A stretch of 64,000 nucleotides of DNA. It comes from Candidatus Aenigmatarchaeota archaeon. Lineage in GTDB: Archaea; Aenigmatarchaeota; Aenigmatarchaeia; CG10238-14; SCSR01. Position 1 is the stretch's first letter, and every line of letters starts with the position of its first letter. Positions 79-64,000 of this stretch are shown here, in pieces. A program made the position numbers and the translations under genes. The DNA lies in NCBI GenBank assembly GCA_016181005.1, contig JACPAE010000004.1, positions 1-64,000 on the forward strand. The letters are read 5' to 3'. The notes under the pieces were generated by a model. That model was not told the origin of the DNA and did no database searches. It worked only from the letters and a program-made list of their open reading frames with translations.

Positions 79-614
79 TCACTTGGCAATCTTGTCGATT
101 GGATTCCTTACAATCTTTACGCCTTCTTTTGTTATTGTCGCGATGTCGATCGACTTTCCACCCGAACCGATGTCACGCTCAATCGCCGATTTAATTGACC
201 TCATTGCAAGCTTGCCCCCTTCCTCCACTGTCAATCCTTCCTTGTAGCTGTCCTCAAGCACTCCCAATGCCATAGGAGAGCCTGAGCCTGTCGAGAAGAA
301 TTTCTTCTCCTCCTCTGCAGATCCTATCGCGTCCAAATCAAATATGTGCGGTCCTGTAGCATCATAGCCAGCTATCATCAGCTGAACAAAATAAGGATAG
401 AACTTGCTGTTCTGCAGGATGTTCGAAAGCAATGTCGCGGCACCCCCGACCGAAAGCTTTCTCTGGTTCTCTATTTCAAACAGCTTTTCAAGTAACCCAT
501 CGTTGACTTGCTCTCTGCAGCAAGAATCACCCCGTCCTTGCACACCATTCCGACTGTTGTTGTCCCAGTCTTCTTTACCTGCAAAGTTTTTTCCAAATCT
601 TCTCTCAAAGACAT
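79..614 (-). pseudogene. psmB: Proteasome beta subunit, internally deleted and frameshifted
   Basis: The 5' part (from the ATG at 614) encodes a short propeptide ending in G, then the catalytic Thr (TGTTTVGMVCKDGV) and the Glu17-equivalent (ILAAESKSTMGYL). The reading frame then jumps at about 490: the remaining protein (EKLFEIENQRKLSVGGAATL, then LSNILQ to the C-terminus NPIDKIAK) is normal beta-subunit sequence but in another frame. Compared with known archaeal beta subunits about 35 residues are missing at the junction, including the segment with catalytic Lys33 and the conserved TIAGSVGDAQ-type motif. As written it cannot make an active subunit. Either the gene is broken (a second psmB would be expected elsewhere) or the assembly dropped roughly 110 nt. 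A TATA-like TTTTTAAA lies near 651-659. The aCPSF1-like gene follows, a common archaeal neighbour. Confidence 0.85.
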
Positions 615-650
615 CACGAGAATCAGATAATTTCTATTGACCGGCTAGGT

Positions 651-59360: not shown

Positions 59361-60119
59361 TTACATCAGCTTCCTCAAGTCTCCAGCTTTCTTTATAGCC
59401 AAATCAACAATAGCTTCCAGGTCATTGAATGCGATGCCGCTGGCGCCTTGCTTCTGTATCGCGCATATCTTGCCGTCTTCCATTACTGCTATGGAAACCT
59501 TCGACTCGACAACGGACTCCTCCTCTATCGCAGGGTCAACAAAAAGATTGTCGCCAACCTTGCAAACAGTAACAGTCACCGGCTTGTGGGCAACAGGCAA
59601 CTTGTCTCCATGCTCGCCGGCCACAACCTTTCCCTCCTCAAGCTTCGGTAGTTTTGCAGTTATGAGAGCGTTGATTGCAGCCAATGCCGCGGCGTCAATG
59701 AGGTTGCCCTGATGGTCGATTATGTGGATATCCACAAAAACCGTCCAGACTTTTTCGCCAGGCACTATAACAAGCTTTTCCGTCTCCAAACTCTTCGACT
59801 CCCTGATGCCCCTGTCTACAATCCTTGCAAGCTCTACAGCATTCTCTCCTGGCGGCCCTGACTCGAATTCCGGAGACGCCATAGGCGTGAATTCAGTGTT
59901 TACAATCAGCACGCCGTTATTGGGGCTGTCTGAAAATGGCGTTCCTACACCTATCTTGACGCCGGCAATTACCTGCGTCTTGCCTATGCGCACGTAAGCA
60001 GAGCCTTCAGCCTTGCTTATGACACCAGTCTTTATCTCAATATCCCTGAACTGGTCGAACTTCCTCTTGTCAACCCTCTTTCCATGCTCTATAAGCTCCA
60101 AAGCATAACGCTCCATCAT
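59361..60119 (-). CDS. rrp42: Exosome complex subunit Rrp42
   Basis: 252-aa RNase PH-fold subunit, inactive itself but pairing with Rrp41 in the hexameric ring. RVDKRKFDQFRDIEIKTGVI and GSAYVRIGKTQVIAGVKIGV open the fold; VELARIVDRGIRESKSLETE follows. It overlaps rrp41 by 4 nt. Confidence 0.95.
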   Translation of the reverse strand: MMERYALELIEHGKRVDKRKFDQFRDIEIKTGVISKAEGSAYVRIGKTQVIAGVKIGVGTPFSDSPNNGVLIVNTEFTPMASPEFESGPPGENAVELARIVDRGIRESKSLETEKLVIVPGEKVWTVFVDIHIIDHQGNLIDAAALAAINALITAKLPKLEEGKVVAGEHGDKLPVAHKPVTVTVCKVGDNLFVDPAIEEESVVESKVSIAVMEDGKICAIQKQGASGIAFNDLEAIVDLAIKKAGDLRKLM

Positions 60120-60838
60120 TCAGCACCCCTGTACTTCTCCATCAGAGTCTGTTTCTGAATCTGGTATATCTTCTTGCACGACTCTCTGGCCAGATTCAAA
60201 AGCATTACCAGCTCTTCCTTTGTCAGGATGCCGTCCATCTGCAGCAGAGTGACAATGTCTTTCTGCGGCATCATCGCAACCCCGACATCTGATTCCGAGT
60301 TGTTGTCTTCCACGCCGTTAAGGTCGACTATCAGAGTGTCGCTAATCTTCCCAACAGAGCATGCGGCAACCAAATCCTTCATCGGTATGCCTGCAGACGC
60401 AAGTGCCATCGAAAGCGCGTTTATTCCAGTGACCCTTGTGCTGCCGTCCGCCTCGACTATTTCTATAAAACTATCAACAGTTGACTTGGGATAATCTTCC
60501 AGGAAGAGCACAGGCTCGAATGCCCGCCTTATGACTTTTGATATCTCAACGCTCCTTCTGTCAGGTCCCGGAGACTTTCTGTCGTCGACGCTGAATGGCG
60601 CCATGTTGTACCTGCATCTCAGGATGCCGGTGTCCGACTCCTGCAGGAATTTCGGAAATAAAGACCTGGGACCGTGCACGCTCGCGTATGCAGTGGTCTT
60701 GCCGAAGCTGACCTTCGCCGAGCCATTGGCACTGGAAATTTCGTCAACGCTCATCTTAATCTCCCTCATATGGTAAGGCTCCCTTCCGTCCAGCCTTCTG
60801 CCATTCACGATAAGCTCTTTGTCAGTCGCCTTGCCCAT
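60116..60838 (-). CDS. rrp41: Exosome complex catalytic subunit Rrp41
   Basis: 240 aa; phosphorolytic 3'-5' exoribonuclease. RRLDGREPYHMREIKMSVDE and CRYNMAPFSVDDRKSPGPDR, with the RRSVEISKVIRRAFEPV segment, are typical. The catalytic aspartate region aligns as EDNNSESDVGVAMMP, keeping the key Asp. The start lies 17 nt inside rrp4. Confidence 0.95.
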   Translation of the reverse strand: MGKATDKELIVNGRRLDGREPYHMREIKMSVDEISSANGSAKVSFGKTTAYASVHGPRSLFPKFLQESDTGILRCRYNMAPFSVDDRKSPGPDRRSVEISKVIRRAFEPVLFLEDYPKSTVDSFIEIVEADGSTRVTGINALSMALASAGIPMKDLVAACSVGKISDTLIVDLNGVEDNNSESDVGVAMMPQKDIVTLLQMDGILTKEELVMLLNLARESCKKIYQIQKQTLMEKYRGAE

Positions 60839-61499
60839 TTACCTCACCCAGCATTTTCTCGATCTTCTCCGTAAGCCCCATTGTGTGGGATTCCTTCTCT
60901 ATAGTAATAATAGCCTCTATAGCCTTGTCTTTGGTATCGCCCCTTATCCATATCACGCCATTCTGGCCGACGATTATGTCGCATTTAGTACTGGCTTTTA
61001 TCATGCTTATCATGCTGCCTTCCTTGCCGATTATCCTCGGCACCCTTGTGGGAGTCACCTTTATGATAATGCCGTTCCTCAGTTTCCTTGATTCGAAATC
61101 CCTCATGGACGCCTGGACAGTCTTCTGCTTCGTTACCCGCGAAAGCCTGCAATAAATTATATCGCCGACATCAAAGAATCTGGTCAGATCAGACCTCTGC
61201 ATGTCTACAAACTCTTCCACGCCTTCCGAAACAGGCAGGAATGCCGTATATGCGGAGTTTATGTCGACAAACCAGCCCGATATCTCCACTGATTCTATTA
61301 CCGCGACAACCCTGTCGCCCATCTTCGGCAGGTAGGTCCCGTACATCGGAATCACGGCCAGCTCATTCTCACTAATCCTCGGTATTCCCAAAAGCTTGGA
61401 GAAGACCTTGCCATCCTCCTCGTAAACGCCGTTGCCCAGCTTCCTTCCCTTCCTTTCGTCCAGCATGTCGCCCGGCAGGACAACTTCCCTAGCCTTCAT
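60822..61499 (-). CDS. rrp4: Exosome RNA-binding cap subunit Rrp4
   Basis: 225 aa with an N-terminal domain (VVLPGDMLDERKGRKLGNGV), an S1 domain (GDRVVAVIESVEISGWFVDI) and a KH domain with GxxG in RVPRIIGKEGSMISMIKAST. It overlaps sdo1 by 4 nt and rrp41 by 17 nt, as in other archaeal operons. Confidence 0.95.
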   Translation of the reverse strand: MKAREVVLPGDMLDERKGRKLGNGVYEEDGKVFSKLLGIPRISENELAVIPMYGTYLPKMGDRVVAVIESVEISGWFVDINSAYTAFLPVSEGVEEFVDMQRSDLTRFFDVGDIIYCRLSRVTKQKTVQASMRDFESRKLRNGIIIKVTPTRVPRIIGKEGSMISMIKASTKCDIIVGQNGVIWIRGDTKDKAIEAIITIEKESHTMGLTEKIEKMLGEVNGQGD

Positions 61500-62203
61500 G
61501 CGTCTTCCCTCTTGAGCACTTTCGATTCAAAATTTCCATGAGTTAGATTTGAAATCTTTTGTATAAATTCGTCCATGACGCCGGCCATAAGCTCCACGCT
61601 GGCCTGCAAAGAGCCGTCGTTGAGCCACTGTTCGCCTACAACCTTCCCAGTTTTTATTATCGGGAACGCCCTCCCTGCAAACTGCGGCGGAACCTTCACC
61701 TGCAGAGTCACGTTCTGGAACTTTAATGGAATATATTTTTTGATTGCCTCGACAATTTTCGCAAGTTGCAATTCTGCCGGTGAAAAGGGATCGACATTCA
61801 CGCCTGCCTGGTGCATGGCATTTAGGATTCTCTGCTCAGGGTGCGGCGTATTGGTCTGCGGATTTACTCCCCTTTTCGATATCAAGCCTGCAACCTGGCT
61901 CCTTTTCTGCTCAACCATCTCCCTTCTCTGCTCTGTCGTAAGCTGTATCTCGCCCTGCTTAAGGATGACTTCCGCTATCTTGTAGGCATCCTTTGTGCCG
62001 AAAACCTTCTGCAGCTCTGACTCTGCAACCGATTCAGTGCTTCTCACGTCCCTGTAAATCACAGGATAAGCCAAAATCTCTTCCATAGGAACAGCCTTTC
62101 CACTCTTCAAATCCATTGCTTTATTCGGATCTACAAGTATTTCAAACTTTTGCCCTTGCGCTGTCAATCTGGATATGACAGCCTTTTCTATGCTTACTGA
62201 CAA
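61496..62203 (-). CDS. sdo1: Ribosome maturation protein Sdo1 (SBDS)
   Basis: Factor for release of aIF6 from the large subunit. The three-domain SBDS layout is seen: AVISRLTAQGQKFEILVDPN, the central TPHPEQRILNAMHQAGVNVD region, and a C-terminal ferredoxin-like domain. I choose the TTG at 62203 (MSVSIEKAVISRL) since it matches the family start and GTGAT lies just upstream; a GTG at 62212 and a TTG at 62224 are alternatives. aIF6 is encoded 3 kb away. The gene follows psmA with a short gap. Confidence 0.93.
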   Translation of the reverse strand: MSVSIEKAVISRLTAQGQKFEILVDPNKAMDLKSGKAVPMEEILAYPVIYRDVRSTESVAESELQKVFGTKDAYKIAEVILKQGEIQLTTEQRREMVEQKRSQVAGLISKRGVNPQTNTPHPEQRILNAMHQAGVNVDPFSPAELQLAKIVEAIKKYIPLKFQNVTLQVKVPPQFAGRAFPIIKTGKVVGEQWLNDGSLQASVELMAGVMDEFIQKISNLTHGNFESKVLKREDA

Positions 62204-62224
62204 CAGAATCACGTATAATTGCAA

Positions 62225-63033
62225 TCATTTCGAAGGCTTTCCGCCATCGCCAAGCTTCATGAATCTGCCGTCCTTCTTTATAACAGCAATGTCGGTCACA
62301 ATGTCCCTTTTCTCCTTGTCCGATTTCTCAGTCTTGTCGATTATTTCCAAAGCCAAATCAGTGGCCTCCTTTTCGCTCATGCCGTCCTTCCATTTTTGGT
62401 TCAGCAACTTGTTGGCCAATGCCGCGCCTCTTCCTATGGCCTGCGCCCTCCACTCGAACAGCGTGCCCGAAGGATCGGTCTCAATCAAGTGAACCCCTGA
62501 CCTGTCCACGCCTCCAAGCAGCATCGACACACCAAAAGGCCTTAAACCGCCATATTGCGTAATCAACTGCATCCTGTTTCCTATCACCTTGCCGATGTTC
62601 CAGACGTCGACAGGCTCGCTATAAGTAAGCTTGTGCATCTGCGCCCTCACCCTTATCATCTGGACCAGAACCCTGGCGTCAGCTATAAAGCCCGAGGCAA
62701 CCGCGCCCATATGGTCGTCTACTTGGAATATCTTTTCTGTCGCGTCCGATACGACCAGCTTTCCCGTAGGCTTGACAGTGGCAAAAACAATGCCATCCTT
62801 GAATGTTATTCCTAGTGCTGTGCTGCCTCTCTTGACGGCCTCTTTTGCGTACTCTAACCAGGCGAAAAAGGAAACCCTTAATTCGCTACCTGGAACAAGC
62901 GGCCATCAGGCGAGAATCTACACCAAATAGCTATTACACTATCTGATTACATAGCCATCGTCCGATCATAACCCATTTGAATAACAGCCAGCAATTAACT
63001 GAACCATTAATATTCCGGCATGATCTCAGGCAT
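62225..63033 (-). CDS. psmA: Proteasome alpha subunit, gene interrupted by three BHB introns
   Basis: Outer-ring subunit of the 20S proteasome. Exon 1 is 63010-63033, exon 2 62949-62976, exon 3 62888-62915, exon 4 62225-62855. Joined, they give 711 nt (236 aa) starting [18 protein letters not shown] and continuing [20 protein letters not shown], a near-perfect match to archaeal PsmA N-termini, including the gate-forming YDR and the [13 protein letters not shown] motif. The chosen ATG has GGTGAT five bases upstream. Without splicing, stops follow immediately: TAA after codon 8, TAA at the exon 2-intron junction, and TAA three codons into intron 3. The rest of the subunit is intact, ending in KDGRFMKLGDGGKPSK. 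It heads the operon with sdo1, rrp4, rrp41, rrp42 and rpl39e. Splicing is inferred from structure and homology and has not been observed. Confidence 0.88.
62856..62887 (-). other. psmA intron C (32 nt, bulge-helix-bulge)
   Basis: Central helix CCAG (62890-62893) with CTGG (62858-62861). Bulges are GTA (62887-62889) and TTA (62855-62857), and the inner helix is GCGAA/TTCGC next to an AAGG/CCTT pairing. Cutting after the second base of each bulge joins CAG GT to A GAG TAC, restoring Gln-Val-Glu-Tyr of the universal FQVEYA motif. The outer helix is weak (two pairs). Confidence 0.85.
62916..62948 (-). other. psmA intron B (33 nt, bulge-helix-bulge)
   Basis: Central helix CTAT (62951-62954) with GTAG (62918-62921, one wobble). 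Bulges are GTA (62948-62950) and ATT (62915-62917). A nine-pair inner helix, ATCAGATAG with CTATTTGGT, closes an 8-nt loop. Cutting after the second base of each bulge joins ATG T to TC TCG, giving Met-Phe-Ser-Pro as in known PsmA proteins. The outer helix has two pairs. Confidence 0.87.
62977..63009 (-). other. psmA intron A (33 nt, bulge-helix-bulge)
   Basis: Central helix GAAT (63012-63015) with ATTC (62979-62982). Bulges are ATT (63009-63011) and AAA (62976-62978). The inner helix is AATGGTT/GGCTGTT (seven pairs, several wobbles) and there is a short outer helix CCG/TGG. Cutting after the second base of each bulge joins GAA TAT to ATG GGT, keeping the frame into Gly-Tyr-Asp-Arg. This intron affects only the variable N-terminal tail, so homology supports it less than introns B and C. 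Confidence 0.78.
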
Positions 63034-63088: not shown

Positions 63089-64000
63089 TTAGAATTTAGT
63101 ATTAGGGTTTATATTGTTTTTCAATTTCCAATTAACTGTTTCGATAGGTCCTCTTTTGCTTATCACACTCTTTTCTACTAGACCTTCTTCGACCAGTTTA
63201 TGTACATTCTTCCAGATTACATCACGATTTCGATTAACTATTCTACATAAATCTTTAGTTCTTAATACACTACCCATTTTTAATGCGTCTAATATTCTCA
63301 TTTTTGACTCACCCTTTCCATAAGTTTTATAGCTGTTAATGGTTTGCACCAATTTCCCTTTCTTTTTATTGTCAGTAAAGCCTACGGTTTCTATAAATTT
63401 CATAAGATTGTACCGTCCGTATATATTAAACCCTATTGATGTTGAATCATATGGTTGTTTTCTTTCATAAAGCCCATTTGGAGATATACCTAAGGAAAGT
63501 AGAATTCCTCTTATATCTTCCATAAATTTTTTGTGAGCGTTTAATAGAAAGTTCTTTTTGTTCATACTAAATCCTATTACATAATTTCCTTTGCTATTGA
63601 TGACAGTTCCTTCATCATCGAAAAGTGCCCTGATAAAAGCTGATTTAATGTTAAGAGAACCATTTTTAATCCATTCTGGTATTGTTAGAGCTTGTTTTAC
63701 TTTTTCACCTTTCGGAAAACCGCATAAAACTAGGAATCTAGCTACTGTTTTAGGCGGATATATTTCGTAGAACTCTCGTTCTTTATTAAAATTCCAATTT
63801 GGATAAATTCCAAACAAGCCTTTAACTAGCATTCTAAATTCGTCAGCCAAATCCTTACTTTTGTTGGTATAATATACATTTTCTTCCCCTTGTTTAATAC
63901 AGCCATCACCTAGAACATGTCCTAAAAGTGATGCTATTTTCTCATTAGCCTTAAATGGCATTTCGACATTTATGATATACTGACCTCTATGTAACTTTAG
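63089..64000 (-). CDS. LAGLIDADG homing endonuclease-like protein with C-terminal winged helix (partial)
   Basis: The frame is open to the right edge of the window. Two LAGLIDADG-type helices are seen: IASLLGHVLGDGCIKQGEEN and IKSAFIRALFDDEGTVINSK, each with the acidic residue (GDG, DDEG) that binds metal. The C-terminal about 65 residues (MRILDALKMGSVLRTKDLCR and onward) form a winged-helix-like DNA-binding domain. An ATG at 63961 is possible, but sequence before it (HRGQYIINVEMPF) looks like normal family sequence, so the real start is probably beyond the window. It is A+T-rich, unlike the neighbouring exosome genes, consistent with transfer. Whether it is free-standing, intron-encoded or part of an intein cannot be decided here. 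Confidence 0.8.
   Translation of the reverse strand, partial: LKLHRGQYIINVEMPFKANEKIASLLGHVLGDGCIKQGEENVYYTNKSKDLADEFRMLVKGLFGIYPNWNFNKEREFYEIYPPKTVARFLVLCGFPKGEKVKQALTIPEWIKNGSLNIKSAFIRALFDDEGTVINSKGNYVIGFSMNKKNFLLNAHKKFMEDIRGILLSLGISPNGLYERKQPYDSTSIGFNIYGRYNLMKFIETVGFTDNKKKGKLVQTINSYKTYGKGESKMRILDALKMGSVLRTKDLCRIVNRNRDVIWKNVHKLVEEGLVEKSVISKRGPIETVNWKLKNNINPNTKF

Follow-up and report, generated by a model that had tools for sequence, protein, structure and literature searches.

Introns in archaeal coding sequences have been known essentially from cbf5 alone (PMC2738675, PMC7714728). The cbf5 pre-mRNA introns of Crenarchaeota are 16-44 bp long and their splicing has been confirmed at the cDNA level in several species (Watanabe 2002; Yokobori 2009, PMC2738675). 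A paper from 2020 lists cbf5 as the only reported case of a bulge-helix-bulge (BHB) intron in an archaeal mRNA, apart from a 5' UTR that is processed in Haloferax (PMC7714728). In the CC-licensed papers of PubMed Central we found no report of BHB mRNA introns in Aenigmatarchaeota, DPANN or Micrarchaeota, nor in rtcB or proteasome genes, which agrees with the statement of the initial annotation of this DNA that a proteasome gene with such an intron had not been described. To cbf5 we would now add psmA, with three very probable introns in one gene, and rtcB, for which introns were modelled in 26 genomes.

The window, i.e., the whole stretch of 64,000 nucleotides that was analyzed, comes from a genome (G000) that has Candidatus Aenigmatarchaeota as its closest relatives with a name. 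It contains the gene for the alpha subunit of the proteasome with the following arrangement:

62225..63033, minus strand: psmA from start to stop, four exons and three putative introns; spliced product of 236 aa, above the cut-off of NF003075
63010..63033, minus strand: exon 1 (MPEIMPEY), 24 nt
62977..63009, minus strand: putative BHB intron 1, 33 nt, at PEY/M; H1 GAAU, bulge AUU; H2 AUUC, bulge AAA; inner helix of 7 bp
62949..62976, minus strand: exon 2, 28 nt
62916..62948, minus strand: putative BHB intron 2, 33 nt, at AM/F; H1 CUAU, bulge GUA; H2 GUAG, bulge AUU; inner helix of 10 bp
62888..62915, minus strand: exon 3, 28 nt
62856..62887, minus strand: putative BHB intron 3, 32 nt, at QV/E; H1 CCAG, bulge GUA; H2 CUGG, bulge UUA; inner helix of 5 bp
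62225..62855, minus strand: exon 4, 631 nt including the stop codon, intact
59361..62224, minus strand: SBDS, rrp4 and two RNase PH-type exosome genes (Pfam), directly downstream of psmA

The three inserts were already proposed as BHB introns in the initial annotation, and its anatomy holds to the base: the lengths of 33, 33 and 32 nt are exact, both internal exons (62976-62949 and 62915-62888) measure 28 nt, and every insert contains the complete motif with 4/4 central pairs and two 3-nt bulges on opposite strands (3-4-3 geometry). Likewise, cutting after the second base of each bulge does restore the frame and the conserved residues. With the slash marking the cut, the 5' and 3' sites are GAAU.AU/U and AUUC.AA/A for intron 1, CUAU.GU/A and GUAG.AU/U for intron 2, and CCAG.GU/A and CUGG.UU/A for intron 3. 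The joined exons comprise 711 nt, i.e., 236 codons plus the stop codon, and are collinear with the intron-free psmA genes of the same genus.

The evidence for BHB introns in psmA is the register, the reading frame and the covariation, and not the raw stability of the folds. The folding-energy z-scores of -1.0 to -1.5 are unremarkable on their own and the outer (exon-exon) helix of each intron has only 2-3 bp. In composition-shuffled inserts, an equally good helix in the exact register is expected with a chance of 2.0e-3, 2.4e-3 and 5e-4 for introns 1 to 3, values that include a factor of 3 for equivalent registers, and even when 39 placements are allowed in a very lenient search, the chance is about 0.02 for each intron. 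Left in the message, each of the three inserts introduces a stop in frame. In intron 1 this stop follows residue 8 immediately, so that splicing would be needed to make the protein.

Taken together, psmA very probably carries three BHB introns that are cut by the tRNA-splicing endonuclease EndA, with the exons joined by RtcB to encode an alpha subunit of 236 residues. Each intron would fold into a bulge-helix-bulge in the pre-mRNA, EndA would cleave both 3-nt bulges after their second base and RtcB would ligate the exons. We infer cleavage and ligation from features that can be read directly from the DNA, namely the anatomy, frame and register described above together with conservation and covariation among relatives, the genes for EndA and RtcB and the intron-bearing tRNA genes. 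A group I or group II ribozyme intron was rejected, as 32-33 nt is much too short for one and an Rfam scan of the window gave no match at the gathering score.

The inserts are short, can form hairpins and start with a stop codon or close to one, so the ribosome could also skip them without any removal of RNA. Such translational bypassing depends on a match between take-off and landing codons. No such match is offered by intron 1, whose borders allow no equivalent sliding; the number of border placements that yield the same psmA mRNA is one, two and four for introns 1 to 3. What the inserts do have in common is a 4-bp/3-nt BHB geometry that covariation shows to be conserved, and we therefore regard bypassing as extremely improbable.

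Splicing of psmA is further supported by the comparison with related genomes, in which the inserts recur at the same or neighboring sites in four relatives and are absent from others. Within the genus (G001 to G004 in addition to G000), the psmA genes of G001, G002 and G004 have no interruption, and G003 has one intron of 31 nt at RT/I. In other genera of the family, G010 and G012 have one intron each at PEY/M and G013 has three, at PEY/M, RT/I and AV/F. This amounts to nine introns of 31-35 nt in five genomes. The PEY/M junction is identical in G000, G012 and G013 and shifted by 2 nt in G010, the AM/F intron of G000 lies near the AV/F intron of G013, and the QV/E intron occurs only in G000 among the psmA genes read. 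In alignments anchored at the junctions, without a phylogenetic model, we counted compensatory changes in seven columns at PEY/M (three genomes), in eight at AM/F versus AV/F and in two at RT/I. At the threshold used, 137 of 155 sampled genomes of the phylum have a psmA match. N-masked G123 and contig-end fragments were set aside, and the remaining genes outside the five intron-bearing genomes form a single open frame that aligns from near the N-terminus, with stops further on in a few of them. Within family f12, where some psmA genes are reported to contain stops, reading through the N-terminal regions of G127 and G048 revealed no intron. An apparent N-terminal interruption in G123 was rejected as an intron because it results from N-masking. 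Mapped onto the psmA tree, the distribution of introns implies five changes, and well-supported branches force at least three of these.

The same comparison bears on the possibility that psmA is a decaying pseudogene or that the inserts are assembly errors, which has to be considered as the genome is a metagenome assembly and the gene for the beta subunit at the other end of the window is damaged:

79-617, minus strand: psmB, frameshifted, with a break near 486

Compared with a psmB from the same genus, 112 nt are missing. This gap may be a deletion, a pseudogene or an assembly collapse; no other psmB was found in G000, and the frameshift raises the question of whether the proteasome of this cell works. 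For psmA, however, one rule excises all three inserts to the base and the remaining exon of 631 nt is intact. The compensatory changes and the introns at shared sites in relatives are a strong argument against both assembly error and pseudogene decay, so we consider this explanation very unlikely. An intact second psmA, which the initial annotation had named as a counterargument to its own reading, was not found in the 740-kb assembly of five contigs (92% complete). The interpretation of the inserts as BHB introns in that annotation has been strengthened by the uninterrupted orthologs within the genus, by the introns in four more psmA genes and by the compensatory changes. Beyond that first reading are the damaged psmB, the introns in rtcB and a further gene next to psmA:

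63089..63961, minus strand: LAGLIDADG homing-endonuclease-like open reading frame (PF14528, E 1.5e-16), directly upstream of psmA; the open frame of 373 aa runs past the end of the window

Wherever psmA carries introns (five of five loci), the next gene upstream is a homologous open reading frame, and the encoded proteins are related to each other with 31-43% identity. By contrast, LAGLIDADG genes adjoin none of 15 intron-free loci for which about 1.5 kb of upstream sequence each was considered, and in G002 of the same genus, with an intron-free psmA, a Pop5/Rpp14 gene is located directly upstream. The association of 5/5 versus 0/15 corresponds to a Fisher p of about 6e-5 (hand arithmetic), uncorrected for phylogeny. 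As the relatives have only 0 to 20 LAGLIDADG_3 matches per genome, adjacency to psmA by chance should be rare. In G008, an upstream match of 106 aa, at the motif level only, lies at a distance of 1.2 kb. The psmA introns of G000 with 32-33 nt hold no LAGLIDADG frame themselves, as this gene lies outside and upstream. A similar arrangement defines collaborative homing, in which a phage group I intron is combined with a free-standing homing endonuclease gene beside the target gene, and here as well a free-standing endonuclease gene adjoins an intron-bearing one. On balance, we slightly favor the view that the psmA introns owe their insertion, or their retention, to the fact that they disrupt the target of the upstream endonuclease, and that the pair would travel together by gene conversion.

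The main competitor is that the psmA introns are plain BHB introns unrelated to their neighbor, gained and kept for regulation, e.g., by tying psmA expression to the splicing capacity of the cell. Through its introns the psmA message acquires stops close to its 5' end, a negative regulatory role has been proposed for the cbf5 intron (PMC2738675), and the rtcB introns of G000 and G004 exist without a LAGLIDADG gene as neighbor. This explanation accounts poorly for the association with the upstream endonuclease and for the scattered presence of introns on the psmA tree, and we assume that it is a real but less probable option than collaborative homing.

The genome encodes the machinery that the splicing of psmA would require. 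The tRNA-splicing endonuclease family has one match in G000:

L070 9014-9580, minus strand: EndA, 188 aa, TIGR00324 above cut-off

According to a comparison based on a PDB alignment, the position of the catalytic Lys156 of M. jannaschii EndA is occupied by Ala in this protein and in eight related EndA sequences, which read IRA followed by T or K, so the activity of the enzyme needs explaining. In G002, the endA match has a LAGLIDADG_3 match on its upstream side at a distance of about 440 nt (G002:C6:108993-109986). Of the 30 tRNA genes read, at least 13 contain introns according to ARAGORN -i, which was used in place of a splicing scan of single tRNA genes that was too noisy and was set aside. 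An intron survey of G000, covering 424 kb read, of which 132 kb could be compared with homologous coding sequence of relatives, showed interruptions in psmA and rtcB only, and cbf5 (TruB_N) is a single open frame with no stops. One candidate from the gene survey in G003 was rejected on reading the sequence.

The second interrupted gene encodes the expected ligase itself and is present in one copy:

G000:C2, L069 8458-9996, minus strand: rtcB with two putative BHB introns, at CMPDGH/SGYG and GFD/INC

BHB introns could be modelled in rtcB of 25 further genomes; together with G000 they are distributed over two phyla, with 18 genomes in the phylum of G000 and 8 of 70 sampled genomes in the phylum of a Woesearchaeota genome. 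No structure was obtained for the cases of G057 and G132 and for the second break of G046. Most of the introns are found at two hot spots in conserved active-site codons. The DGH/S intron is common to eleven genomes of the set compared (G000, G004 and nine others) with compensatory changes, again from junction-anchored alignments. The outer pair of its 4-bp central helix is a G-A mismatch throughout, which classifies this intron as a relaxed BHB. The shortest rtcB introns have 16 nt (L112, G011) and 18 nt (L075, G019), and the 4-bp/3-nt geometry still fits. Other rtcB genes carry long intein-like insertions near the second hot spot (DIN/C), and in rtcB of G002 (L074) an intein-like insertion follows VIMFHC in frame. 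That the rtcB introns serve autoregulation is speculative. It seems about equally balanced whether the wider picture holds, in which a two-part mobile system of a LAGLIDADG gene and tiny shielding BHB introns moves through DPANN proteasome genes, and BHB introns in active-site codons of DPANN rtcB mean that the ligase needs the ligase, possibly as a feedback loop. The rtcB introns make such a loop testable, as the enzyme expected to join BHB exons would depend on BHB splicing of its own message. Furthermore, ordinary gene callers would report intron-bearing psmA and rtcB as broken genes or pseudogenes.

In comparison with known systems, the cbf5 introns are closest: they are also short BHB introns in a coding sequence, split a catalytic codon, are gained and lost between relatives and are cut by EndA (PMC2738675). 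The differences are that psmA and rtcB are affected in another clade, with up to three introns per gene and an adjoining LAGLIDADG gene, and that the cbf5 introns are mostly unconventional whereas those of psmA have the canonical 4-bp/3-nt form and, being in a different gene, do not share the position at the catalytic Asp codon of cbf5. The mRNA site of HVO_1309 in Haloferax is likewise a BHB cut by EndA, but in a 5' UTR instead of a coding sequence (PMC7714728). Homing BHB introns of archaeal rRNA and tRNA genes combine BHB splicing with a LAGLIDADG endonuclease as well; however, their reading frame is located inside the intron, whereas the psmA introns have 31-35 nt and the frame lies outside and upstream. 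Collaborative homing in phages resembles psmA in the free-standing endonuclease gene beside an intron-bearing gene and differs in that the introns described here would be BHB introns spliced by proteins and interrupt a housekeeping gene of an archaeon. In this way, the association with LAGLIDADG genes offers a concrete and testable origin for archaeal mRNA introns, a point that the work on cbf5 had left open.
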